Below, piece by piece: positions 8,660 to 58,140 of a DNA stretch of 64,000 nucleotides; position 1 is the first letter of the stretch, and every line of letters starts with the position of its first letter. The notes below the pieces were generated by a model, which was given only the letters and a program-made list of their open reading frames with translations, searched no databases and had not been told where the DNA came from. A program made the position numbers and the translations under genes. This stretch comes from Morinoia aosen (lineage: Eukaryota > Arthropoda > Malacostraca > Amphipoda > Talitridae), in contig CM059575.1 of NCBI GenBank assembly GCA_030386875.1, positions 18,314,293 to 18,378,292 on the forward strand, in the 5' to 3' direction.

Positions 8660-9740
8660 CATCTAAGTAATGCCTCACTGGACACGATGTGCGCAGAAAA
8701 CTCCACGGTGATATATTGCGGGAGGTGTTCGCGTTTTCAAGAGACAACGAATTCCTTTGTCCACATCCCTTCATTCCTCCAGAGCGCGACACCGCGAAAA
8801 ATTGCTCCAGTTTTGAGCGTTGCGAAAAACTGACGTCACTGCCAAAGGCGGTTATTGATCTAAGGAAATATTAATAGGCAGGGAGTCGACGGCGCACGTA
8901 ACCTTCTCAGTTTATGAATAACAGATGCACTCCAATCGAAATGGCCGATTTTCTCGCATTGGGACGCTTGCTTCGATGCAAGCGCATCCTGAACTTGTAA
9001 AGGCCTGCTCTCCTGAGTGCAGTCGGTGTCACTATGCTGATGAACACACTAAGTATTTTTGTTCTGGGTATTGAACGAATAATTTAAAGAACAATAGAGC
9101 TCTCACTAAAAGAAAAAGTTCATTTATTATTGACGTTCAAAAGGTCTAACGTCACGTCCATCTGAGCAGCGTGCTCAATGATTTAACATTTTTTCATTCC
9201 ACATAATAAGTCGAACTGATGGCGAGGAACGTTTGAACAATCAATGAAAGTTCACCATCCCACATGCAGCATCTGCTAAGAGCTACTTTCACAACGTTTT
9301 TGCTGATAATCGAAAAACATTAATTAATTTCAGGTTGTCGAAAAATTAACGTACACACGCGTATCTCCATGAAATAGGCGTGCATTTCCTACTGAGCTCA
9401 AAAGGTTCAACAATTTCTTTATAACTTTATCATTGGCGTGGAATCGGCCTGCATTGATACGAGTAGTCCTTGTTTTGCACTTGGAATTTAACCATTAGAC
9501 TCGAGAAAGAAATTAATTTTGAATCTTGTATTTGAAAGCAGGAGAATTTGCCCCCGCACAACTCGTCGTCTTGTTGTCGTTCCCTCTCTCTGGCCCTGTT
9601 GTGTGCACCGCTCTGTGAGCTACATCTGCTTCGTGCGTAAAGCTTTGTCCTGTAAATATATAGAGTACAGCTCAACCTCATCGCCACAGCTTCCAGTGCC
9701 TGGTTGTGGGCACCAAACTTTCCTAACGCCATAAACATCA
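8660..9740. other. No recognisable gene
   Basis: Short open frames only, with no domain, RNA gene or repeat that I can support. Confidence 0.5.
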
Positions 9741-10138
9741 TACGTACTAATGCTGGGCCACTTCTGGCTGCCAGCATCCGTACTAATGCTGCACCACTGC
9801 TGGCTGCCAGCATACGTACTAATGCTGCACCACTTCTGGATGCCAGCATCCCTACTAATGCTGCACCACTTCTGGCTGCCAGCATCCCTACTAATGCTGC
9901 ACCACTTCTGGCTGCCAGCATCCCTACTAATGCTGCACCACTTCTGGCTGCCAGCATCCCTACTAATGCTGCACCACTTCTGGCTGCCAGCATCCGTACT
10001 AATGCTGCACCACTGCTGGCTGCCAGCGTCCGTACCAATGCCGCACAACTTATGGCTGCCAGCATCCCTACTAATGCTGCACCACTGCTGGCTGTCAGCA
10101 TCCGTACTAATGTTGCACCACTGCTGGCTGCCAGCACA
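9741..10138. repeat. 36-bp minisatellite, 11 units
   Basis: Units start with ACTAATGCTGCACCACTTCT and run in strict 36-bp register from 9746. Most differ by one to three bases; the ninth and tenth are more diverged. The period is a multiple of three and the unit lacks stops, so it stays open in several frames on both strands: a 12-residue NAAPLLAASIPT repeat on plus and a MLAARSGAALVG repeat on minus. I read these frames as a by-product of the period. Confidence 0.95.
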
Positions 10139-14200: not shown

Positions 14201-14326
14201 CGTATAGAGCATTTTAAGGGGACCCAGGGTGTGACTTGCTGTCGCCAGAGAACACTTGAAGCTCTTAAAAACCGGAAAATGAAGAAACATCAAGACATGC
14301 TCAAGCTAGTGTGACCAATCGATTGC

Positions 14327-14769
14327 GCGAGGGCGTACATCAGCGGCGTGAAGGCGTACATCAGTAGCGTGAGGGCGTACATCAGCAGCGTGAGGGCGTA
14401 CATCAGCAGCGTGAAGGCATACATCAGCAGCGTGAGGGCGTATATCAGCAGCGTGTGGGTGTACATCAGCAGCGTGAGGGCGTACATCAGCAGCTTGAGG
14501 GCGTATATCAGCAGCGTGAGGGCGTACATCAGCGGCGTGAGGGCGTACATCAACAGCGTGAGGGCGTACATCAGCAGCGTGAAGGCGTACATCAGTAGCG
14601 TGAGGGCGTACATCAGCAGCGTGAGGGCGTACATCAGCAGCGTGAGGGCGTACATCAGCAGCGTGAAGGCGTACATCAGCAGCGTGAGGGCGTACATCAG
14701 CAGCGTGAGGGCGTACATCAGCAGCGTGAGGGCGTACATCAGCAGCGTGAGGGCGTACATCAGCAGCGT
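14327..14769. repeat. 21-bp minisatellite, about 21 units (block 1)
   Basis: The unit is GCGTACATCAGCAGCGTGAG plus one G. It is very homogeneous, with scattered changes such as GAAGG and GTAGC. The 21-bp period keeps frames open on both strands (plus RAYISSV, minus MYALTLL). The same unit recurs in the same orientation at 16,436-16,710. Confidence 0.97.
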
Positions 14770-16095: not shown

Positions 16096-16435
16096 AGTAA
16101 ATGGAAAATCTGAATCACAAAAAATGATTAAATCATAACCTAGAAACATAAATCGCAGTCACTGTAATCAAAAAAGAGAAAGAAAGATTTAAGGTAAGAA
16201 AACCAAAACCTTGATGAGAGGCTCAAAGGCACTTCAACACCACAGTTCAGTAGTTCAGCAATTGCCTTACTCGTTCTTCTTGTTGTCCAATTTAGTGTAC
16301 AAGTCTAAAAATACTACCAGAATATATTAAAAGCTCACCGACATTCTTTCCCCTCTCCCATCGATCAGCTCGACACCTCCAGTAAAGTACACACATATGA
16401 TGTACATGATGGAAGTACACTGAAGTTCTTAACAA

Positions 16436-16710
16436 GGGCTTACATCAGCAGCGTGAAGGCGTACGTCAGCAGCGTGAGGGCGTACAGCAGCAGCGTGAAG
16501 ACACACATCATAAGTGAGACTGCGTACATCAGCAGCGTGAAGGTGTACATCAGCAGCGTCAGGGCGTACATCATCAGCGTAAAAGCGTATATCAGTTGCG
16601 TGAGGGCGTACATCGGTAGCTTGAAGAAACACATCATAAGTGTGAGGGCGTACATCAGCAGCGTGAGGGCATACATCAGCAGCGTGAGGGGGTACATCAG
16701 CAGCGACAGC
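16436..16710. repeat. 21-bp minisatellite, about 13 units (block 2)
   Basis: Same unit and orientation as 14,327-14,769 but clearly more diverged, with units such as ACACATCATAAGTGTGAGGGC mixed in. The 1.67 kb between the blocks includes the other repeat at 15.7-16.1 kb. Confidence 0.93.
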
Positions 16711-35134: not shown

Positions 35135-35156
35135 TTATAATAATAATAATAATAAT
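35135..35156 (-). repeat. (ATT)n 3' tail of the I-like element
   Basis: About seven TAA/ATT triplets directly after the 3' UTR. I-type elements are known to end in such short repeats instead of poly(A). Confidence 0.85.
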
Positions 35157-35300
35157 GAGGGGTGTTGATACAATCAACATTAAAGCACGGACACGGGTCC
35201 TTTACTGCTCCCCTTTATGCATGTCATCTGCGATCGCAAGGTCAATTTAGAAACTCATCATTAAAGGTAAGTCAATTGCAATGCAAAGTTACTGAAACAT

Positions 35301-38300
35301 TTAAATTAGGTCGTAGACATCTATCACACGAAGATAGTTCATTAATTCCTTGACGTCTAAATGGCGTCCCAATACCGTCTCGACGGTAGGTTGTAGCGTT
35401 TGGCAAGCCTTTATACAATTTCTACTAATTGTTAGACTTTCACATTCTATGATTAGGTGTTTGACAGTTAGTGTTGAGTTGTTGCAAAACTCGCACACTG
35501 GTGCAATATCAGGTATCTCGTTGTTCATCAGGTAGCCATGCGTTAAGAATGTGTGTCCTATTCTGAGTCTGTTAACTATTATTTCCTCTTTACGTGATAT
35601 TTTACCGAAGTCCAACTCTATTCCTGGTGATGGTTGTATTTCCCTTAATTTGTCTCTGCAATTTTCCCACCTAGTTTTCCACTGGTTAATCACGGCTTGT
35701 CGAATTAATGGTTTCCAATCTGTGTAGCAAATTAGGATAAATTCTTCGTTTTTTTGGGTTGCGTTCTTGGCTGCAGTATCTGCAGCATCGTTATCGCCTA
35801 TTCCGACATGGGAGGGGATCCAGCATATGTTGATGGCTTTGCCGCCTTTTTGTTTTTCGTGTATGTCGTGTTGTATTCGGCGTAGTACTGGATGGTATGT
35901 CTCGTACTTTAGGCTGTTAACGACACTCAAGGAGTCGCAGTATATTACGAATTTTTTATCTCTTTTTTCATTAATGATGCCAAGGGCCAAGTGGATGGCG
36001 TGTATTTCGGCTGAGTATATTGAGGCCTCTTTCGGTAGCGTTGCAGAGCGAACAATGGTGCCACATACTGCTGCCGCTCCTGTGCCATTTTCTCCTCTTG
36101 AGCCGTCTGTGTATATAGTTACATATCCGTCATATTTTTCTTTTGTCATTCTTTTAAACTCTTGACGGATTATGTATTCAGGGGTTTCGTTTTTTGGTAG
36201 TTCGGTGAGGTCGGTATTTATTGTTGGTTTTGTTAGTGCCCATGTGGGAGTATTAATGTTTAGTAGTCGGTATGAAAAGTCTGGTTTAACTCGATTTTTC
36301 CGGAGGCCAAATTTTTCTATCAGTATTTGCATTTTAATAGCGAATGTTGGAGTTATTTTCCTATTTTGGAAGAGTAGTCGGTTACTCGGCGTCACAGTGT
36401 AATTGAAGGCGGGGTTTCCATGTTGACTTCGGATTTTGTAGTAATAACAGAGGGATAGATAGTTTCGCCTAATATCGGGAGGCATTTCATTGCAAATAAT
36501 GTGTAGACTATTTGTTGGGCTGGATTTGAATGCTCCTGTAGCGATTCGTAGTGCTTCGGATGTAATAGACTCGATGGGCTTTAGAGTTGTTTGGCTGGCA
36601 GAGTTATAGATTATTGATCCATAATCGAGGATTGATCTTGTAATGCTTCGATAGATTTTGAGGATCGTGGTTTGGTCTGCTCCCCAGCTTTGAGCTGTTA
36701 TTGATTTTAATAAGTTCAGGCTATCATTCCCTTTTTTCTTTAAAGCAGTGATGTGTTGTTGCCAGTTCAATTTTTCATCGAAGATCAGGCCGAGGAATTT
36801 ATGTGAGTTTGTGTATTGAATGTTTTCATCATTGAGTTTAAGTATTGGGCTGAGGAAGAGTCCGGGTATGGTATTGAAATGTATTGCTTTGCTTTTACTG
36901 GATGAGAATTTGAAGCCATGATTTTGGGACCACTTAAATATTTTATTGATACAGGATTGCATTTTGTCTTGGATAATCTTGAGGTCTTGGTGGTGGTATC
37001 CAACTTGTAAGTCGTCAACGTATAGTGAGTGGTGGAATTTGTTGTCCGGTGGGATCTGCTTGGCTATGTCGTTTATTTTGAGGGCGAATAACGTGACCGA
37101 GAGGACACTGCCTTGAGGGACTCCGTTTCGCTGTTCGTAAATATTTGAGCTATAGTTGTCTATTCGGACACTTAGTGTTCTACGTTCTAGGAATTTGGCG
37201 ACAAAAGTTGGTAATCTGCCCCTGAGTCCGATATCGAATAAATCCCGTATGATCCCATATCTCCATGTTCTGTCGTAAGCTTTTTCAAGGTCGAAGAACA
37301 CTGAGATGAAGTGTTCTCTGTTTGCGAATGCTAATCTTATGGTTGAGTCTAGTCTGACCAAATGATCTGTAGTGCTACGCCCCTTTCTGCATCCACACTG
37401 CTCTTTACTAATTATATTGTGCATATCTAAGTATTCGATCAGTCGATTATTGATCATTCGTTCCATTAATTTGCACAGACAGCTCGTGAGTGCGATGGGT
37501 CTGTAGTTATTTGGTTTACTATGGTCTTTCCCGGGTTTTGGGATTGGTATTATTATCGAGTGCTGCCATTGTGGTGGGAAGTAGCCCGTTGTCCAGAATT
37601 TGTTAAAAGTGTTCAAGATGTATTGTTTAGCTGGTAGTTTTAGGTGTTTGATCATGTCGTATGTTATTTTGTCGTTTCCTGGTGATGTGTTTTTAGTTTT
37701 TCTTAGGGCGGATTCAAATTCATGCATATGGAAAGTTTGGTTATAGATTTCTACGTTTGGCGAACTGAAATGGATCGGTATAGTTTCATTTGCGGTTTTG
37801 ATTTGTTGAAATTCAGGGGAATAGCTTTGATCGCTTGACACTTCGCTGAAATTTTCAGCCAGTTTATTCACAATATCAGGGATTGTGCTGTAGTGTATAT
37901 TGTTTTCGATCAATATATGGACTTTTCTTTGTACTCGACCTTTTATTTTCCTTATTGTTTCGTATACTCTGGCCATTGGTGTATATTTATTAAGTTGGTT
38001 TACGAAATTCTTCCACGTTTCCTGTTTGCTTGCTCGAATTTTGTATTTATGATTTGCCCTTGCTCGTTTCCAGTTAATTAAGTTAGTAAGAGTTTTATTG
38101 CGGTGGTATTTCTTGTAAAGTTTTTCTCTTTCTTCTTTTGATTCTTGGAGTTCTTTTGTCCACCATGGTTTGGGGTAGTATTTTCCTGGTATATAAGTTG
38201 GGATGGCTTTTTCAGCTGCTGAGTAGAACCGCTGGTATAAGTCGGTGAGTAGTTGTTCGTTATTAGTTGTTGTGTTCAACATCGGCTTGTTCCATGCATT

Positions 38301-39026
38301 GTTATTGGAATATAGATCCCAGTTAGCTTTTGAGTAGTTCCAGATAGTTGATGGGGGTTGGTTGGGACGATTTTCGTTAAGGTAGGTGATCAAAATTGGG
38401 CAATGATCGCTATCACCCGGCGAGTCGAAAGCAACCCAGTCTAATAGCACGGCCAATGTAGGTGAGCAAATTGTCAGATCGATAGCTGATTCTGAATTGT
38501 ATCCTATTCTAGTGGGTGAACCAGTATTTAATAGGCAAAGGTTATTGTTTGTAATAACAGTTTCTATCAGCTTCCCCCTATTATCTGTATTTTTGCAGCC
38601 CCATATGGTGCTGTGTCCGTTGAAGTCGCCGGCTAGGATGAAAGGATTCGGTAGTTGGTGGATTAGGTTATTTAGTTTTTCGTTTGTGACTGTTTGTCTA
38701 CCGGGTATGTAGATGCTGCAGATGGTTATCAGCTGTCCTATGTTTACTTGAATGGCCACGCTTTGTAGTTCAGTCTGTAGATTCAGTTCACAAAAAGGTA
38801 TTGAGCTATGGACATATATTCCAACACCTCCATGGGGGGTTCTGTTGTAATGACCGTGTCGTAGCACATTACTGTAGCCGCTTATTCTAAACTGGCAGTT
38901 ATCCCATAGCTTTGTTTCTTGAAGTGCTATTATACTGGGTTGGTGGTTGTTTATTGTTTCCATTAGTTCATCTTTCTTTCCCCTGATGCCTTGGCAGTTC
39001 CACTGCAGGATTCCTACGTTAGCCAT
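35301..39026 (-). CDS. I-like retrotransposon ORF2: endonuclease, reverse transcriptase, RNase H
   Basis: This 1,241-residue polyprotein nicks the target and reverse-transcribes the element RNA there. Residues 1-215 are an APE-type endonuclease: WNCQGI (9-14), ALQET (34-38), AGDFNGHS (132-139), IDLTICSP (182-189), SDHCPI (206-211). Reverse transcriptase spans about 440-750, with NNYRPIALTS (506-515), FFDLEKAYDR (577-586), NGVPQGSVLS (634-643) and the catalytic YVDD (669-672). RNase H spans about 967-1090 with a complete D973/E1007/D1031/D1080 set (YTDGS, SAEIHA, YCDS, DNDAAD). A terminal CX2CX8HX4C knuckle lies at C1178/C1181/H1190/C1195. There is no stop or frameshift. The start at 39,026 lies 43 bp after the ORF1 stop and immediately precedes the endonuclease. 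All catalytic motifs that I can check are present, so activity is plausible. Confidence 0.95.
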   Translation of the reverse strand: MANVGILQWNCQGIRGKKDELMETINNHQPSIIALQETKLWDNCQFRISGYSNVLRHGHYNRTPHGGVGIYVHSSIPFCELNLQTELQSVAIQVNIGQLITICSIYIPGRQTVTNEKLNNLIHQLPNPFILAGDFNGHSTIWGCKNTDNRGKLIETVITNNNLCLLNTGSPTRIGYNSESAIDLTICSPTLAVLLDWVAFDSPGDSDHCPILITYLNENRPNQPPSTIWNYSKANWDLYSNNNAWNKPMLNTTTNNEQLLTDLYQRFYSAAEKAIPTYIPGKYYPKPWWTKELQESKEEREKLYKKYHRNKTLTNLINWKRARANHKYKIRASKQETWKNFVNQLNKYTPMARVYETIRKIKGRVQRKVHILIENNIHYSTIPDIVNKLAENFSEVSSDQSYSPEFQQIKTANETIPIHFSSPNVEIYNQTFHMHEFESALRKTKNTSPGNDKITYDMIKHLKLPAKQYILNTFNKFWTTGYFPPQWQHSIIIPIPKPGKDHSKPNNYRPIALTSCLCKLMERMINNRLIEYLDMHNIISKEQCGCRKGRSTTDHLVRLDSTIRLAFANREHFISVFFDLEKAYDRTWRYGIIRDLFDIGLRGRLPTFVAKFLERRTLSVRIDNYSSNIYEQRNGVPQGSVLSVTLFALKINDIAKQIPPDNKFHHSLYVDDLQVGYHHQDLKIIQDKMQSCINKIFKWSQNHGFKFSSSKSKAIHFNTIPGLFLSPILKLNDENIQYTNSHKFLGLIFDEKLNWQQHITALKKKGNDSLNLLKSITAQSWGADQTTILKIYRSITRSILDYGSIIYNSASQTTLKPIESITSEALRIATGAFKSSPTNSLHIICNEMPPDIRRNYLSLCYYYKIRSQHGNPAFNYTVTPSNRLLFQNRKITPTFAIKMQILIEKFGLRKNRVKPDFSYRLLNINTPTWALTKPTINTDLTELPKNETPEYIIRQEFKRMTKEKYDGYVTIYTDGSRGENGTGAAAVCGTIVRSATLPKEASIYSAEIHAIHLALGIINEKRDKKFVIYCDSLSVVNSLKYETYHPVLRRIQHDIHEKQKGGKAINICWIPSHVGIGDNDAADTAAKNATQKNEEFILICYTDWKPLIRQAVINQWKTRWENCRDKLREIQPSPGIELDFGKISRKEEIIVNRLRIGHTFLTHGYLMNNEIPDIAPVCEFCNNSTLTVKHLIIECESLTISRNCIKACQTLQPTVETVLGRHLDVKELMNYLRVIDVYDLI

Positions 39027-39069
39027 GGGGTGTGTTTGATTTGATTTTGTTATTCAATCGTTCAATTAG

Positions 39070-41613
39070 TTACTTTCTTTTGGGTGATCTATCTCTAATC
39101 CTAGAGTCACGAGAGTAGTGTGATTGTTCCTCATCTGAGTAAATTTGTCGTTTATCATGTCTGTTGCGGCTGTAGGTGGGGGATCGTGATTTTGATCGTG
39201 ATCTTGGTCGCTTCTTGTTTTGGGTTTTGAAAGGTTTGTGCTGCTTTGGGGGTTTGAATTCGTTGAATATTCGTCTGGCTTCTTGTCTCATAATAGGGTT
39301 GCATTCGCTCGTGCCATCTTCCTCATTTTCAGATCCTTCGGCTGTAGTTTCAATATTAATTGTGGATTTGAGCAATTGTGTTGGATTGGGTTTAATGCGG
39401 AGTATCTCTTTTTCGCATGTTTCGTGGTCGCGTTGTGAAGTTTGCGGTGGTTTGGTTTCTGGTGTATCGGTTGTGTTATCAGTTGTACCTGGTTCGTTAC
39501 AAAGTGGGGGAGCCATATTTTGTTCGGTGATCGTTTGGTTTTTGGGAGCCGCCATAAAGGGTTGGGGGGTTGGTACTTTGGGTATTTGATCCGTTCGATT
39601 TCTGGTTATTTGTGCGTAGCTTTGGTCGAGTTGTGGGGATCGTTTGTGGTATATTATAAGGGCTTGTTCTCTTGATACGTTTTGTTTAGTACGGATAGAA
39701 ATTAGTTCTTGTTGCTTGCGTTGTTCCGGGCAAGTCCGGTCTCCAGTTTTGTGATTGTTTCCGCAGTGGTAGCATGTCAAGTTGTTTTCCGTGCAATTTG
39801 TTGCTTCATGGCCTTTTGTTGCGCATTTTCCACACACGAACTCTTCACTGGTACATCTTTTAGCAGTATGGTTGTATTCCAAGCACTTTTTACACATCAT
39901 AGGGCGGTCGAAGTATTCATATATCCTACTCTTGCAGTCTTGGCCAAGGATGTCGATATACTCAGGGGGGGTTGAGCCTCTGAAAGTTAGAAGTATTGCT
40001 TTTGCATTTGTGTTACGGCTTTTTATCCAATTTGCTGGTTCGGCATTTTTGATTATATGGTTTTCCATTAAACCTTGTTTGAATTTCTCGAAGTTGGTGA
40101 AGTCGTAATTATAGATGTAGGCGAGTCCTTTTGAAAGATTTACATAGTTATTTTCTGTTACTTGCACAGGGATGTTATTTATGTCTTTGATTTTCTGTAT
40201 TTCATCTTTTGGTCGTGTGTGATCTAATTCTACAATAAATGTGTTTTTGCCACCCGATCGAATAGATTTGGGTTTTCCTTGGATTTGGTTTGCAATACAT
40301 TTTTCTAGGAGCCATGGAGTAATTTTCCGCTTTTCGTTTTCCTGCATCGTTATATTGAAATGAGTTGTGGGGGTGTTCGTATCTGATATTGGTATCTCGT
40401 AGTGTCCTGTGACTATCTGTACAGCACGACGCCTATTAACTCGTTGTTCTTGTTGGACTTTGCATATTTCTGTTTCCATGATATGTTTCGGGCATTCTCT
40501 GTGGCCAGTTTCATGTTGACGCTTGCAATGCATGCAGGAGAGGGCGCTGCCACAGTGTTCGCTGTCATGGCCTGTTTCTCCGCAGCGTTTACAGTTTGCT
40601 TCGTTATGGCAGTGTTTGGCTGTGTGGCCGTAGTTTTGACATTTGTGGCAGATCATTGGTCTATTAATAAATGGGTATACTATCGTATCTGATTTTTCGC
40701 CTGGGATATATATAGAGTCTGGTGTAGTGTAGCTATTAAAGGTTAGTAGGAGTGGGGTGGTTTGGGAGAATCGAGTTTTAATGAAGCTGGCACGGACAGC
40801 GTCACTGATATTGTACTGGCTCTTTAGGCCTTCCACAAATTCTTCCATATTATCTACATCGTATTCTTGAATATATATTAGTCCTTTGGATTGATTGTAG
40901 TATGGGTGTTCGCTGATCTGGCAATTAATGCCGTCGACGTTATTAAGTCTGGTGATGCGCTCAGATTGGGGTTTGTTTCGAGTTTCTATGATAAAGCTAT
41001 CTTTACCTGAATAAGTTATTCTTTTCGCCTTCAAACCAGTTATTTTGACTATTTCTTCTTGGAGGCAAAATGGATTTATTTGGTTTCTCTCTTCGACTTT
41101 GAATTTGACCGAGAAGAACTTTGTATAATGGTCGTTCTTCGTCATTTCTTGGTTCAACGATATGGGTGTGTATTTGTTAGCTTTGCTTTGTTTTCTCACA
41201 TTTTCTTTCTCGCAGCCCATGATTTTACTGTTTTTCCCTATGTTCTGCGCTTTCGTCATTTCTAGGATTTTTTCGAGTGTATTTTCGATTTTCCTTATTC
41301 GATCGTCTACATTTTGTGCTTCTTTTTCAACTTCATGTTTATCGGGGTTGATGCATTTGGTTGCATCACCTGCCGCAAGTCTATTCAGCACTTCATTTAA
41401 TTTAGCCTCCAATTGGTCCACCTTACAGGTAGCACCGTTTGGTTCCGGTAGAGTTTTTTCGGTTGTTTGGTCAGATGTTTCATTGTTTTCGCTTATCTTC
41501 CTGGTGATGGTGTTAGTTTTGGGGTTTGTTGCACCTACGTTGGTAGCAGTGCTTAGGTTGTTTTTGTTGGGGTTTATTCGTTGTTTGAATTTGTTTTTAT
41601 TTTTGGCGTACAT
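39070..41613 (-). CDS. I-like retrotransposon ORF1: gag-like protein with duplicated nucleic-acid-binding module
   Basis: This 847-residue protein is expected to bind the element RNA and form the particle that carries ORF2p. Residues 1-160 are polar with a short predicted coiled coil (about 64-122). Module 1 is residues 164-402: an RRM-like gag domain with KGLIYIQEYDVDNMEEF and LLLTFNSYTTPD, then three knuckles (C322/C325/H330/C335; C341/C344/H349/C354; C360/C363/H367/C374). Module 2 is residues 418-655 and repeats the same order: KGLAYIYNYDFTNFEKF, ILLTFRGSTPPE, and knuckles at C574/C577/H582/C587, C594/C597/H602/C607 and C614/C617/H621/C628. The tail (about 800-847) is rich in RS and SR dipeptides. 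The start has A at -3, and the frame is intact. Confidence 0.93.
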   Translation of the reverse strand: MYAKNKNKFKQRINPNKNNLSTATNVGATNPKTNTITRKISENNETSDQTTEKTLPEPNGATCKVDQLEAKLNEVLNRLAAGDATKCINPDKHEVEKEAQNVDDRIRKIENTLEKILEMTKAQNIGKNSKIMGCEKENVRKQSKANKYTPISLNQEMTKNDHYTKFFSVKFKVEERNQINPFCLQEEIVKITGLKAKRITYSGKDSFIIETRNKPQSERITRLNNVDGINCQISEHPYYNQSKGLIYIQEYDVDNMEEFVEGLKSQYNISDAVRASFIKTRFSQTTPLLLTFNSYTTPDSIYIPGEKSDTIVYPFINRPMICHKCQNYGHTAKHCHNEANCKRCGETGHDSEHCGSALSCMHCKRQHETGHRECPKHIMETEICKVQQEQRVNRRRAVQIVTGHYEIPISDTNTPTTHFNITMQENEKRKITPWLLEKCIANQIQGKPKSIRSGGKNTFIVELDHTRPKDEIQKIKDINNIPVQVTENNYVNLSKGLAYIYNYDFTNFEKFKQGLMENHIIKNAEPANWIKSRNTNAKAILLTFRGSTPPEYIDILGQDCKSRIYEYFDRPMMCKKCLEYNHTAKRCTSEEFVCGKCATKGHEATNCTENNLTCYHCGNNHKTGDRTCPEQRKQQELISIRTKQNVSREQALIIYHKRSPQLDQSYAQITRNRTDQIPKVPTPQPFMAAPKNQTITEQNMAPPLCNEPGTTDNTTDTPETKPPQTSQRDHETCEKEILRIKPNPTQLLKSTINIETTAEGSENEEDGTSECNPIMRQEARRIFNEFKPPKQHKPFKTQNKKRPRSRSKSRSPTYSRNRHDKRQIYSDEEQSHYSRDSRIRDRSPKRK

Positions 41614-42000
41614 ACTCCCGGCTTCAGAGGGGGTTTCCCCGCCTCGAAGTCGGGGTTTGAGGTATTCGCTGATTGTTGCCAGAAGTGCTTAAAGTTTTAC
41701 TTTGGGATCCAAAGTAGTAATCCAAAATGGACTATTGGTCTGCGTAACTTAAGTCTATTCTTATAGGCTATTTAAGGGCCCTGGAATATAGGGCAAATTA
41801 AAGAGAAAATAACTACGCAAAAGAGACCCAAGCTCCGAAGAGCTCGGGCCGCCGCCCGACTTTGTTCTACCCAACAACGGGGAATTGGAAAAAAAACTAA
41901 AATCTTAATCCCTCGAAAGAAAACTCAAAAGATAGAGGAAAGAGCAGTTGGGTATTTCAACGGTACCACCACGAGAAGGTGCCGGGTCAGCTGGATACCT
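41614..42000 (-). promoter_or_regulatory. 5' UTR of the I-like element
   Basis: About 385 bp upstream of ORF1. Non-LTR elements of this type usually carry an internal promoter here. It holds a strong hairpin (41,827-41,848) and a GC-rich patch (41,843-41,860) in otherwise AT-rich DNA. The outer boundary is not fixed by a target duplication. Confidence 0.45.
41827..41848 (-). other. 9-bp stem with UUCG loop in the 5' UTR
   Basis: On the minus strand CCCGAGCTC, TTCG, GAGCTTGGG form a nine-pair stem (one G-T) closed by C-UUCG-G, one of the most stable RNA tetraloops known. It lies about 215 bp before the ORF1 start. A role in translation or packaging is only inferred. Confidence 0.6.
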
Positions 42001-42004
42001 GCTC

Positions 42005-42555
42005 GTGAGTAGGTATTCCTGTATCAATCCTTGTCTACGACTTCTTTCCCTTCACCAAGCTCAATAATTCAATAATTTGGTACCAGTAAAAGCTTGGTAA
42101 AGGGAACAGCGAAAATTTCAATTATAAGAACATATAGGTCCGTACAACTGATCTGCAATTCATCTATTGTTGAGCCTATCGTTGTGAAACAAAACTAATC
42201 TTAAAACTGTTTTTGAATATGCAGTTCTCTCTTGCATCATAACATAGTGTGGTAAATCAAATTGATTTATCAGCAATTAGTTAAATTCTTTTATCGAATA
42301 TCAATGAACCTAACGACTGGTCGCAAACACCAGCTTTTAAAAGAATATTTTGTCATCGCTTACAATAGAATGTTTTCAGTTTGAAATGCAAGTTTGGGTC
42401 TGAAGCCCAGATCCACGTTTCAACTTTTTAGTTTCGATGAGGTATTCAATTTTACCTTTGTTTTATTGGCTTAGCACGGGTGCTGCTTACAAATGTTGTA
42501 ATGGAAGCCAACATGGATAAGAATGGATAAATGATGTCATATTCCACTTAAGCAT
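42005..42555. other. No recognisable gene
   Basis: AT-rich, unassigned DNA between the I-like element and the minus-strand SINE. Confidence 0.45.
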
Positions 42556-48439: not shown

Positions 48440-51075
48440 CTGAAGTTTATTCTACATTAAAGCATCTGATATTGACAGAGCTTTCTTCTCAATGTCAGAT
48501 GAACGGTAGATGACTACGACTTTATTTCTCCAATTCGGCTTTTGCTTAGTTACAGTGGGGGATGAAATTGCACAATATCACTATTTTTCTGGGAAATATG
48601 AAGAGAAAATACGTTTTAGGCTCTACGGGTGAGGAATCTATCTTGAATAGGAGTCCAGCCGAGTTTATTTAGGAGAGGAATTGCATGATCGCTCTTTTTA
48701 AATTTACCTTCGCACACCACGTTGGTCACGAAATTCACACATTTTTGTAACTCTCTTTGAAGATATCGAAGTTCGTCTCCCCATACGAGGCTGCAGTAGT
48801 CAATACGCGATAACACTAAAAATTGAATGGCTTAAAATCAAGATTTTTCGTCGAGCATACTTCTATACGATGAACAAACATTAAAGTTCTGTAAATTTTG
48901 CAAAGTTTTTTAAACGTGAGATTTGAACGACATGTTTTGATCGAACCAAATGCCTAAATTTTTCACTTTTCGTAATAGCTTAGTTTCATTATTCCATACC
49001 ATAAGAATCAAATTTGGAATATCTTTTAATTTCATTTTTGAATCCCTAAATAATGCATTGTGCTGTTTCAGCGTTCAGTTTGTTTCTGTTTTGGTCAACC
49101 ATGATTTCAGGGTACTCAATAGGACTTCAGCGTTTTTATGCGTCTGCGGGAATTCCGCCAGTGAAATAGTTATTGCAATTTGAACATCATCTGCATTCAT
49201 GGAAATTCGTGCGTTAGAAGACATTGGAGGGAAATCGTTAATGGAAATAGAAAACAATAACGGACCAAGGATAGATTCTTGAGGAATGCAAAACTGTTTT
49301 GAATGGGGATGGTGACAATTTGTTATCTTAGAGGACTGCATGTGATCAGTTCGTTTCGTAGCTTTCAAACCATTATGTGTTTACCTCTGATTTCAATATT
49401 TTTCGTAAAAGTCTCCCATGTTCGACGCTATCGAACGTTTTGCCGAGATCGAGTAGCGGCAAGAGTGGTACATTCTTTTAATCGATATTACTCTATATTT
49501 TTTGAGTGATATTAAACAGAGCATCTTGTGTGCTAGTGTTCCTCCCGTAGGCATATTGATATCGATTAAATAAATTTGATTCGTCTAAATGAGATGACAG
49601 TTCAATTGTTATCACTTTCTCTAATATTTGGACAGGAGGGGTAAAAGATTTACAGGCCTTTAGTTTGTTGCTGTATTAATATCACTACTTTTATGCGACA
49701 ATCAAATTATGGAGAGCTTCTATTGGTGGGGAAACTTATTAATTTCTATTGATGTATTCATTATCAAACGAATCATTGGTGCCGAGACTGGGAAGCTGTT
49801 TTTGATTTATTGAAGGCTGTCACCATCATGTGCAACTGCTTATGTGTTTTCAGTGGGTATAAAATTCTTTGTAACTCTGGTAAATTGACAGGACGCGGTC
49901 GCCACCTGACATCAGCCTTTGCAGGTATATCTGGATTGGTTTTATATACTTTATTGACGACTTGAGCACATATTTTTGAAAAGAATGTGTTGAAGTTTGT
50001 GGTTGTTACCAAGGGATTTTTAAAATTAATTGTGCGGTCTAAATTTTCACACTGGACTATTTCACTTATGATTTCCCTTGTGTGTTTTGAGTTATTTTTT
50101 GCCGTTAATAGTTCCTGGTGGAGGTGAGTTTGTTTTGGTTCTGTGGTTTTCTTCCGAATAATCTTTTTATGCGCCTTATACCTGTGGTTGAAATACTGTT
50201 TGATCTATTTTTTTTGTACTCAGTCTAGTAAGTTTTTTATTCTGCTGTGCTCTTTGATTTCGTCTGTAACCCCAGTATCACGTTTTGGCCTAATTTCTTA
50301 TGTGATATAAGGTTCACATTTATTGAGAGCTGCGTAAAATAATCGTTGAAGATTGAAAGTTGTATGTCAACATCATCAGATTGCATCATATTCTGAAATT
50401 CGTTGGACCTGTTTAGTAGTGTTTCATGAAATATTTCTGCTGAGTAATGACTTTTCAAACGGTAAGTCATATACCTATAATTTTTTCTTTCTTCTACAAT
50501 ATTTATTTCACATAATATAGAGTTGTGATCTGAAACAGAGAGTGATATTACTGAACTAAGTATTGCCGTAGGATTATTTGCGAGTGCCAGATCGAGAAGA
50601 ATTTTAGGAACTATAGTAATACTAGTTGGTTCTTTAACCATTTGAGATAGATTAAATGTACATGACAATTTGCCAAGCTGATTGTTTATATCTGGCAAGT
50701 CAACGTTAAAATCTCCGAAAGCAAAGAATGACTTTTTGTCGCTAGAATTTCTTATAAAGTTTTCTCAATGAACTCAAGTGTTGGACGTAGGCAAGCCGAT
50801 AGGTGCCTGTGAAGGCTGCCGATGATGATGGATTTATATATATTTATTTGCATTTTCCACCAAATTATTTCTAGTTCTTTGCAAACTTCATTTGATAAAA
50901 AAGAAGATGATGAATAAACATCTTTAACGAAAATACAAGATTTGCTACCTTTGCTACTTTTAACTCCATCAGAGCAGTACAACACGTAATCGGGAATATT
51001 AAAAAAAATTGGGTTCTTGAATCAAATCATGCTTCGAAAACGCATAAATGTCAAGTCCGTATAATGATTGAGGCA
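48440..51075 (-). pseudogene. Decayed LINE (endonuclease and reverse transcriptase), minus strand
   Basis: A relic of a non-LTR retrotransposon ORF2. Going 5' to 3' on the minus strand: an endonuclease segment with VKSSKGSKSCIFVKDVYSSS (about 50,960-50,900); GKLSCTFNLSQMVKEPTSIT then LLDLALANNP and SVSDHNSI (about 50,670-50,530), matching the C-terminal half of an APE domain; a linker with a FFSKICAQVVNK piece (about 49,980); RT blocks QESILGPLLFSISINDFPP and NADDVQIAIT (about 49,290-49,170), where the usual YADD reads NADD; and a thumb segment, SRIDYCSLVWGDE (about 48,810), ending in LLNKLGWTPIQDR. Several frameshifts separate these pieces. The motifs suggest the Jockey/CR1 side of LINEs and differ from the I-like element. 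No tail or target duplication found. Confidence 0.8.
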
Positions 51076-55679: not shown

Positions 55680-57650
55680 TCGTGTCTAATCAAAATGTAA
55701 CCACACACACTGTAGCTCGAGTAGTTCAGAAGTGGCTCAGAACAGAACACTTAGGAGTTGTAGTTTAAATTCGGTAATGCTAAATTCAATTGAGTTTTGT
55801 TCTTTTATGTTATTTATTTAAATTCTGATCAGCATTGAAATGAAAAGTTGTACAATAACGCGATATTATTGTACACGTGATCAGTTGAGTTAATGGTACT
55901 TGACTTCCTAAATTTTAATCGGTTATGTTTTTGTAATTTTTTTGATAAAAATATACATTATTTCCCACGGTATTCGTTAGCAGAGTTATTTGTTGATGCC
56001 ATCATCAAGAGGAATTAGAATTTTCCAACCTCAAGGAATCAGCTTAGCCCGAGTGCCTGGAGCATCAGAAGTAGGGACACTTGAATGGACCATGAGTACA
56101 ATAATATCAGGTCAGGTGTGAGTGCTCCGGTTATATGATGATGCTGAGCTCGGGCTCAGGGCCCAGTTATGCTGGCAAACGTGGCTGAGAATACACCCAT
56201 TTCAAATATTGTGTATAGGACGTAATATTATGGTCACAATAACGAATTCACTCAGATGGTTAATAAATAGATAGCGAAATTGTTAGTAAAATGTTGCCGA
56301 GGATGTTGAGCTTCAGACTCCGGTACTGGGTTAAATAAGAAGAAAAGACGTACGATGCCATATCAAGCAAGTGAACTTTACTGTAATACTGAAGAATTGC
56401 TTGAAATTTTGAGGCCAACAACTTTTAGTACGATAAGTTACTGTGTGTTGGCTGCGAAGTGGATTGTTCATCAAAAATGAACGTTCCATAGTCCTAGACT
56501 TGCTATTAAAGAAATCATCACGAATGTTATTGCCATAGGAATATATGTGATGGCAGAGAACTACTTGAAGCTCAAGAATTCAGAGCACTCATTGCCTCAG
56601 GAATAAATAATATGTGTATGATGTGAAGGTAGGCAACGACAACAAACAATGGGAACGGATTGCAATCACCATTAGGGTTATGTTTGAACAGCCATGTTGA
56701 CAGATGCAAAGTGTCAGAACACATCTCGGGAACTTCATTACAGGTTTTCATACGCTGATCATTGTCACAAAATTGACAGTTTTGGTTTTTGTCGTAGTAC
56801 TGACCGTTGATGAAATTAATATTTTACAATGAGATTATGGAAATTAGCTACAGTTATCGAGATGAGTGTCAGAGTTCAAAAAATCATAACAAATAGTTTA
56901 TACGCTTGTTTTTTTTTTGTGCTTGGCACTTCAACATACCATCAGTAATTAGGCCCCCTATTTCATTCGTCTCTGCCTTTACACAAAACATTAATACAAA
57001 GCAGACCTAATACAGAGCAAACAATAAGCGTGAAATTGAGTAAGAGGAATTTTCAAGGGGAGAAAAGTAGGAAAGATGCAATAAGCCTTCACCATGCTGC
57101 TGCAAAAAATATACCATGCTTTTGCAACTATAAAAAAGTCATCGTAGAATTATAACATTTCTTTTAAATTAACCTGTATCATCATGTACCCGACTACGCT
57201 TGGCTGAAAAACCTATAATTTTTCTTGAAGGTTATTCTTTCTCCGTCCAAGCCATACACTCTCTCGTCGTCCACTGGAGCACAACTGTAGGCAAGGGTCA
57301 CAAAATCCTAACTCTGATATGGTTTGGTTGTACAACAGTAGCTATTGAAATTATTTTGAGCGAATTCTATTCATGTGAGGACATGGTCATTAGTGATACC
57401 TCACAAAGACAGTAACATCAAAGTAAGCGTTTTCTTGGCAACCTGGTGCATAAAGGCAGACAAACACGGCTGCAGAAGAACTGTAAGACTGCTGAAGACT
57501 TCTGATTACGTGTCACCTGGCAATAATCGACCACTGCCAACTGCATGAAAGTCGGACGCACAGTCACGTACAACAGCCACAAATAGCCAGGTAGTCGGTA
57601 ACATCTGTAAATAACCACCCACTAGGTTTCAGAGGGATAGAAACGTCTAG
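55680..57650. other. No recognisable gene
   Basis: About 2 kb, AT-rich. Only the frame 57,200-57,415 is open for any length and it has no known domain. Confidence 0.45.
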
Positions 57651-57653
57651 CAA

Positions 57654-58140
57654 ACAACAGTGAACGCTAGCTACGCAAGCAACTGCGAACGCTAAGTTGA
57701 GCAAACAACTGTGAACGCAAGTTAAGTAAACAACTGTGAACGCAAAGTTACGTAAACAACTGTGAACGCAAGTTAAGCAAACAACTGTGAACGCAAAGTT
57801 ACGCAAAAAACTGTGAACACAAGTCACGCAAACAACTGTGAACGCAAAGTTACGCAAACAACTGTGAATGCAAAGTTACGCAAGCAACTGTGAACGCTAA
57901 GTCAAGCAAATAACTGTGAACGCAAGTTCCGCAAACAACTGTGAACGCAAATTAAGCAAACAACTGTGAACGCAAAGTTAAGCAAACAACTTTGAACGCG
58001 AAGTTACGTAAGCAACTGAGAACGCAAGTTGCGCAAACAACTGTGAACGCAAAGTTAATTAAGCAAACAACTGTGAACGCAAGTTACGCACACAACTGTG
58101 AATGCAAATTTACGCAAACAACTGCGAACGTAATTTACGT
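57654..58140. repeat. 25/26-bp minisatellite, about 19 units
   Basis: Unit GCAAACAACTGTGAACGCAA followed by GTTAA or AGTTAC. Alternating 25- and 26-bp units shift the frame repeatedly. Confidence 0.93.

Follow-up and report, generated by a model that had tools for sequence, protein, structure and literature searches.

LINEs of the I clade carry an RNase H domain after the reverse transcriptase (RT), a feature found in other clades too, and the I factor has a 3’ end of short tandem repeats instead of poly(A). ORF1 architecture varies among LINEs, and in the portions of the literature compared here each protein has one unit of RRM and zinc knuckles. The relevant part of a survey of the Jockey superfamily (Metcalfe and Casane 2014, PMC4120745) places one or two RRMs ahead of three CCHC knuckles in type I ORF1s. 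A gag-like ORF1 of 485 aa with three knuckles appears in the corresponding part of PMC2861651, and PMC3905857, as far as that part of the text extends, gives one or two RRMs and, after them, at least one knuckle. The portion of PMC11203168 that was available contains nothing on the number of RRM/knuckle units.

The element and its ORF1 modules

The window, by which we mean the whole 64,000-nucleotide stretch of Morinoia aosen DNA that was analysed, contains a full copy of a LINE on its minus strand (35137..42119, ~6983 bp). Its ends are common to seven other copies, and it closes with an (ATT)n 3’ tail; all features of the element given below lie on the same strand. The 5’ untranslated region (41614..42119, 506 bp) begins where upstream similarity between copies stops, and the 3’ untranslated region (35137..35300) has (ATT)n at its end. 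ORF1 (39070..41613) runs from ATG to TAA and encodes a predicted two-module nucleic-acid-binding protein of 847 aa. ORF2 (35301..39026) encodes 1241 aa with an AP-type endonuclease, RT and RNase H (Pfam PF14529/PF03372, PF00078 and PF00075), the last at residues 968-1090 with an E-value of 3.7e-13. Human LINE-1 ORF2p was matched by ORF2 at E 1.1e-23 (phmmer), and the named LINE proteins matched were PDB entries of LINE-1, R2 and TRAS1, together with one unnamed polymerase.

The (ATT)n tail was present in all eight copies inspected at both ends, and target-site duplications were found in six of the eight, five by script and one (L005, 9 bp) by eye. Exact junction repeats of 10-11 bp, to which the tail could supply some bases, were returned by the script for L002, L003, L006 and L008; no clear target-site duplication was seen at L007 or the window copy. 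By the LTR criterion, no direct repeat linked the two ends of the LINE among the repeat families listed. An ORF2 that includes an AP-type endonuclease and an RT, together with target-site duplications and the lack of long terminal repeats, makes the element an APE-type LINE. It also has two I-clade features, RNase H after RT and the (ATT)n tail in 8/8 copies, and its assignment as I-like is plausible. The fifth duplication returned by the script is at L004 (L004/L031, contig C25), where 144 bp of target sequence are repeated exactly at the two ends of the insertion.

Elsewhere in the window, a broken RT fragment at 48913-49287 aligned to ORF2 with 24% identity (135 columns, E 0.012) and perhaps belongs to another LINE. 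Two arrays at 14325-14769 and 16435-16705 apparently share one 21-bp unit, a 36-bp array occupies 9739-10136, and a 26/51-bp array occupies 57650-58139. Rfam at gathering thresholds and a tRNA scan returned nothing in the window. The first 240 bases of contig C4 (L047, C4:1-240) contained eight TTAGG units, a hint of an arthropod-type telomere, and the starts of C1, C2 and C20 had 0, 0 and 1 such units and no array.

The ORF1 protein contains two modules, located by module alignment at residues 157-408 (module 1, 40390..41145) and 411-663 (module 2, 39625..40383). Module 1 comprises a first RRM at residues 165-236 (40906..41121), a second RRM-like fold at residues 242-316 (40666..40890) and three zinc knuckles at residues 322-374 (40492..40650), namely CHKCQNYGHTAKHC, CKRCGETGHDSEHC and CMHCKRQHETGHREC. 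The corresponding parts of module 2 are a first RRM at residues 416-489 (40147..40368), a second RRM-like fold at residues 494-566 (39916..40134) and knuckles CKKCLEYNHTAKRC, CGKCATKGHEATNC and CYHCGNNHKTGDRTC at residues 574-628 (39730..39894). Upstream of the modules, a possible coiled coil at residues 64-122 (41248..41424) is suggested by a weak match to a Pfam coiled-coil family, which at 11.4 bits (E 0.29) falls short of the cutoff of 33.5. The C-terminal tail at residues 781-847 (39073..39273) is RS-rich, with nine RS/SR dipeptides, and resembles splicing SR proteins in this respect.

Aligned with each other, the modules were colinear, with 84/239 residues identical (35%) and two gaps of a single residue each (BLASTP, E 6e-56 at 167 bits). 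The original prediction had placed the repeat at residues 164-402 and 418-655, which agrees with the aligned segments at 164-400 and 416-654. The local score between modules was 424; in 500 shuffles the mean was 37 and the highest value 67. Because the part preceding the knuckles alone scored 239 (shuffled mean 32, maximum 56), the similarity is not confined to the zinc knuckles, and the claim of a duplication reaching beyond them passed this check. Identity differed by part and was 18/72 (25%) in the first RRM, 29/75 (39%) in the second and 27/57 (47%) in the knuckles. All 24 zinc-ligand Cys/His residues are intact in the window copy, and the third knuckle of both sets has the spacing CX2CX3HX6C. 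At the codon level, the 248 aligned codons were 49% identical overall and 33% identical at third positions, with a dN of 0.65; dS was not computable, as expected of saturated silent sites. Since third codon positions are saturated between the modules, the duplication is old.

AlphaFold models and fold searches suggest the order RRM-RRM-three knuckles for each module, with the second RRM of either module coming from a lower-confidence model built on a two-row alignment. Four RRM-like folds are therefore probable for the ORF1 protein, along with six knuckles. The six knuckles agree with what had been predicted, but where a single RRM-like domain per module had been proposed the models give two. 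Foldseek TM-scores were low (0.2-0.4), long matches had an rmsd of 6-9 or more, and the knuckle regions had pLDDT values near 40. A viral fold library returned general matches only, several of them RRM proteins. Pfam had no named domain in ORF1 above cutoff, and a sequence search of the PDB with ORF1 gave weak matches only, the best being retroviral nucleocapsid knuckles (E 0.051).

Single-module relatives and the origin of the second module

Other ORF1 families of the host genome were sought with a generic zinc-knuckle probe; the best 150 of 8560 candidates were scored and all 150 matched. The open frames at these places were 726 aa or shorter in 147 cases and 872, 1019 and 1020 aa in the other three. 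Nine of the 150 places, picked mainly for long open frames, were examined. The 872-aa frame (L040) belongs to the two-module family and has two HMM domains, whereas the other eight (L036-L039 and L041-L044) have one each. The frames of L037, L038, L039, L041 and L042 reach the edge of the sequence read, but the rest of their listed open frames amounts to 6 to 113 residues, which leaves no room for a second module of ~250. The expectation that one set of knuckles is the norm thus holds for 8/8 sampled loci of other families in the host genome, and the part of the PMC4120745 survey that bears on the question agrees.

The eight single-module loci form about five groups, with pairs L037/L044 (79%), L039/L041 (89%) and L038/L043 (47%). 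Among the matches listed, no family was closer than L036, which is 28% identical to module 1 and 26% to module 2; in searches with ORF1s of the two-module family, its own copies took up the places scored. To judge from the many places that score equally and have 725-aa open frames, the L036 family may be a second young ORF1 family. At L041 (C21:82711275-82714923) a single-module ORF1 and an endonuclease-like region, recognised by eye, share one frame in an apparent ORF1-ORF2 fusion. Neither the rest of the window nor a sample of 20 10-kb stretches contained another ORF1 module (tblastn E 0.1, module-HMM E 5); an RT-like match at L027 in the sampled stretches (tblastn E 0.077, phmmer 0.0019) looks like low-complexity sequence and was dropped. 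No ORF1 relatives were confirmed in viral and prokaryotic contigs, a set that is uninformative on other animals.

We consider it likely that the ORF1 protein arose by tandem duplication of the whole nucleic-acid-binding module (RRM-RRM-three knuckles), and that this duplication is old and has been maintained. Whether this arrangement is new to the literature is a separate matter, which bears on novelty and not on anatomy. There is an appreciable chance, short of even, that the two-module ORF1 is already on record for a described LINE family, for example one with a Repbase entry; given its abundance, the family may already be in a repeat library. Among the titles and abstract openings listed from the open literature, none describes a doubled-module ORF1.

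A tree of twelve modules (those of the window and L040 with the eight others; unrooted) split modules 1 and 2 together from the eight with support of 100/98. A long-branch warning accompanied the tree, and in three rebuilds omitting four, one and two of the long-branch rows this grouping had support of 100/99 to 100/100. Columns that are alike in at least five of six single-module representatives number 41; modules 1 and 2 each retain the shared residue in 25 of them. These relationships bear on the alternative that the second module came from a related element, through recombination or template switching with that element’s ORF1. Exchange of ORF1 among LINE lineages has been proposed in the part of PMC4120745 consulted, and the difference between modules is greatest in the first RRM, as a joined-on origin might give. 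However, the path between modules 1 and 2 is 2.25, as against 3.9 or more to any of the eight sampled modules, although a donor could still lie in an unsampled family. Six alternatives that group one module with sampled families are poorer fits (p-AU 0.00009-0.004); these values serve as guides, since the groupings were named after inspection of the tree. We regard acquisition from another element as unlikely.

A further alternative is that two modules are ancestral and that the sampled single-module families descend from a lineage that lost one. The unrooted tree would allow the root to fall on either module’s own branch, but under this history a module must have been lost on the way to the remaining sampled families, and ORF1s have one set of knuckles in the parts of PMC4120745 and PMC2861651 that describe them. 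It seems to us very unlikely, and tandem duplication is the reading carried forward below.

Copies, subfamilies and selection on the modules

The host genome was searched over 1.99 Gb in 29 contigs, and all copy counts are lower bounds. With the window ORF1 as query, the best 53 of 10134 candidates were all full-length and 51 of them lacked a stop; the L040 ORF1 returned another 53 scored copies, again all full-length, with 51 free of stops. The two lists have no place in common, so there are at least 106 distinct full-length ORF1 copies, 102/106 without a stop. A 94-aa query matched at 99-100% identity at all 150 places scored, none of which had a stop within the match. By hand count, 47 of these 150 places lie in an open frame shorter than 871 aa, and a good part of the two-module LINE family is broken or truncated.

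Of the 2544 nucleotides of ORF1, 0-2 differ among L002-L008, and 8-9 separate the window copy (L001) from them. A second subfamily consists of L040, L049 and L050, which differ from L002-L008 at 31-42 nucleotides and from the window copy at 39-49. L040 carries both modules and all six knuckles, and L049 and L050 match it across all 847 residues. The two-module LINE family has been very recently amplified.

Comparison of the subfamilies showed how the modules have changed. Between L040 and L002, 17 of the 41 changed codons in the whole ORF1 were replacement changes (expected fraction 0.756, p 3e-6). For the two modules together the count was 8/19 (expected fraction 0.76, p 0.0016); module 2 alone gave 3/9 (p 0.008), and in module 1 (5/10, p 0.066) the silent excess was not significant. 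Between L049 and L004, replacement and silent changed codons numbered 0 and 6 in module 2, 3 and 3 in module 1, and 12 and 18 in the whole ORF1. Module 2 had no replacement among seven changed codons between L050 and L004. Within the second subfamily, L040 and L049 differed by three replacement and no silent changes in module 2 and by two and one in module 1, which we read as changes arising after insertion of that copy. The counts are small, but judged on these codon changes module 2 does not look like a freely drifting module. The proposal that the duplication is old and has been kept is borne out by the saturated third positions between modules and by the excess of silent change between copies and subfamilies.

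That the extra module is a functionless, decaying passenger is extremely unlikely: the large divergence between modules (35% identity) and the L040-L049 changes in module 2 (three replacement, none silent) count for decay, but all zinc ligands are kept in both modules, the 102 stop-free copies speak against it, and with an expected replacement fraction of 0.758 the 0/6 in module 2 between L049 and L004 has a probability of 0.242^6, ~2e-4.

Proposed function and comparison with known systems

By analogy with other type I ORF1 proteins, the ORF1 protein would coat the element RNA and chaperone target-primed reverse transcription. With two modules per chain, and so a doubled binding surface, each molecule would contact about twice the RNA, or bridge two strands, and could thus bind more tightly or be needed in fewer molecules. 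The RRM parts are more diverged than the knuckles, so it is probable that the two heads recognise different sequences and share the same chaperone chemistry. Specificity may have diverged, most of all through the first RRM, while the chaperone chemistry would have been kept in the more conserved knuckles. It is conceivable, if rather doubtful, that this is a two-headed coat protein whose heads bind different partners (e.g., element RNA and target DNA, or two RNA regions), with this asymmetry underlying the recent success of the family in its host. The doubled unit, present in many near-identical intact copies, offers a natural experiment, both on the number of RNA-binding units that an ORF1 protein requires and on their possible specialisation.

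The window element resembles I-clade LINEs in having an endonuclease-RT-RNase H ORF2 and a short-repeat 3’ tail, both typical of that clade, and differs from them in its doubled ORF1 module. The ORF1s with one module found elsewhere in the genome (L036, L037/L044, L038/L043, L039/L041 and L042) are 23-30% identical to one or other of the two modules (BLASTP) and can be aligned along the module. They carry one module each, in frames of 597-725 aa, or of 1020 aa where an endonuclease-like part is included (L041).

The type I definition, as worded in the part of PMC4120745 that sets it out, is at least one RRM immediately upstream of CCHC knuckles, and this arrangement was found in the window ORF1 from the models, fold searches and zinc ligands. 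A single set of three CCHC knuckles belongs to that survey’s subtype listing and stands outside the type definition; the window ORF1 instead has six knuckles in two sets. Because the type definition itself applies, the two sets mark a variant of type I. Each window module has the same RRM-RRM-three CCHC order as the two-RRM/three-CCHC subtypes of type I (Jockey-like) ORF1 listed there, whereas the window ORF1 holds the whole set twice in one protein.
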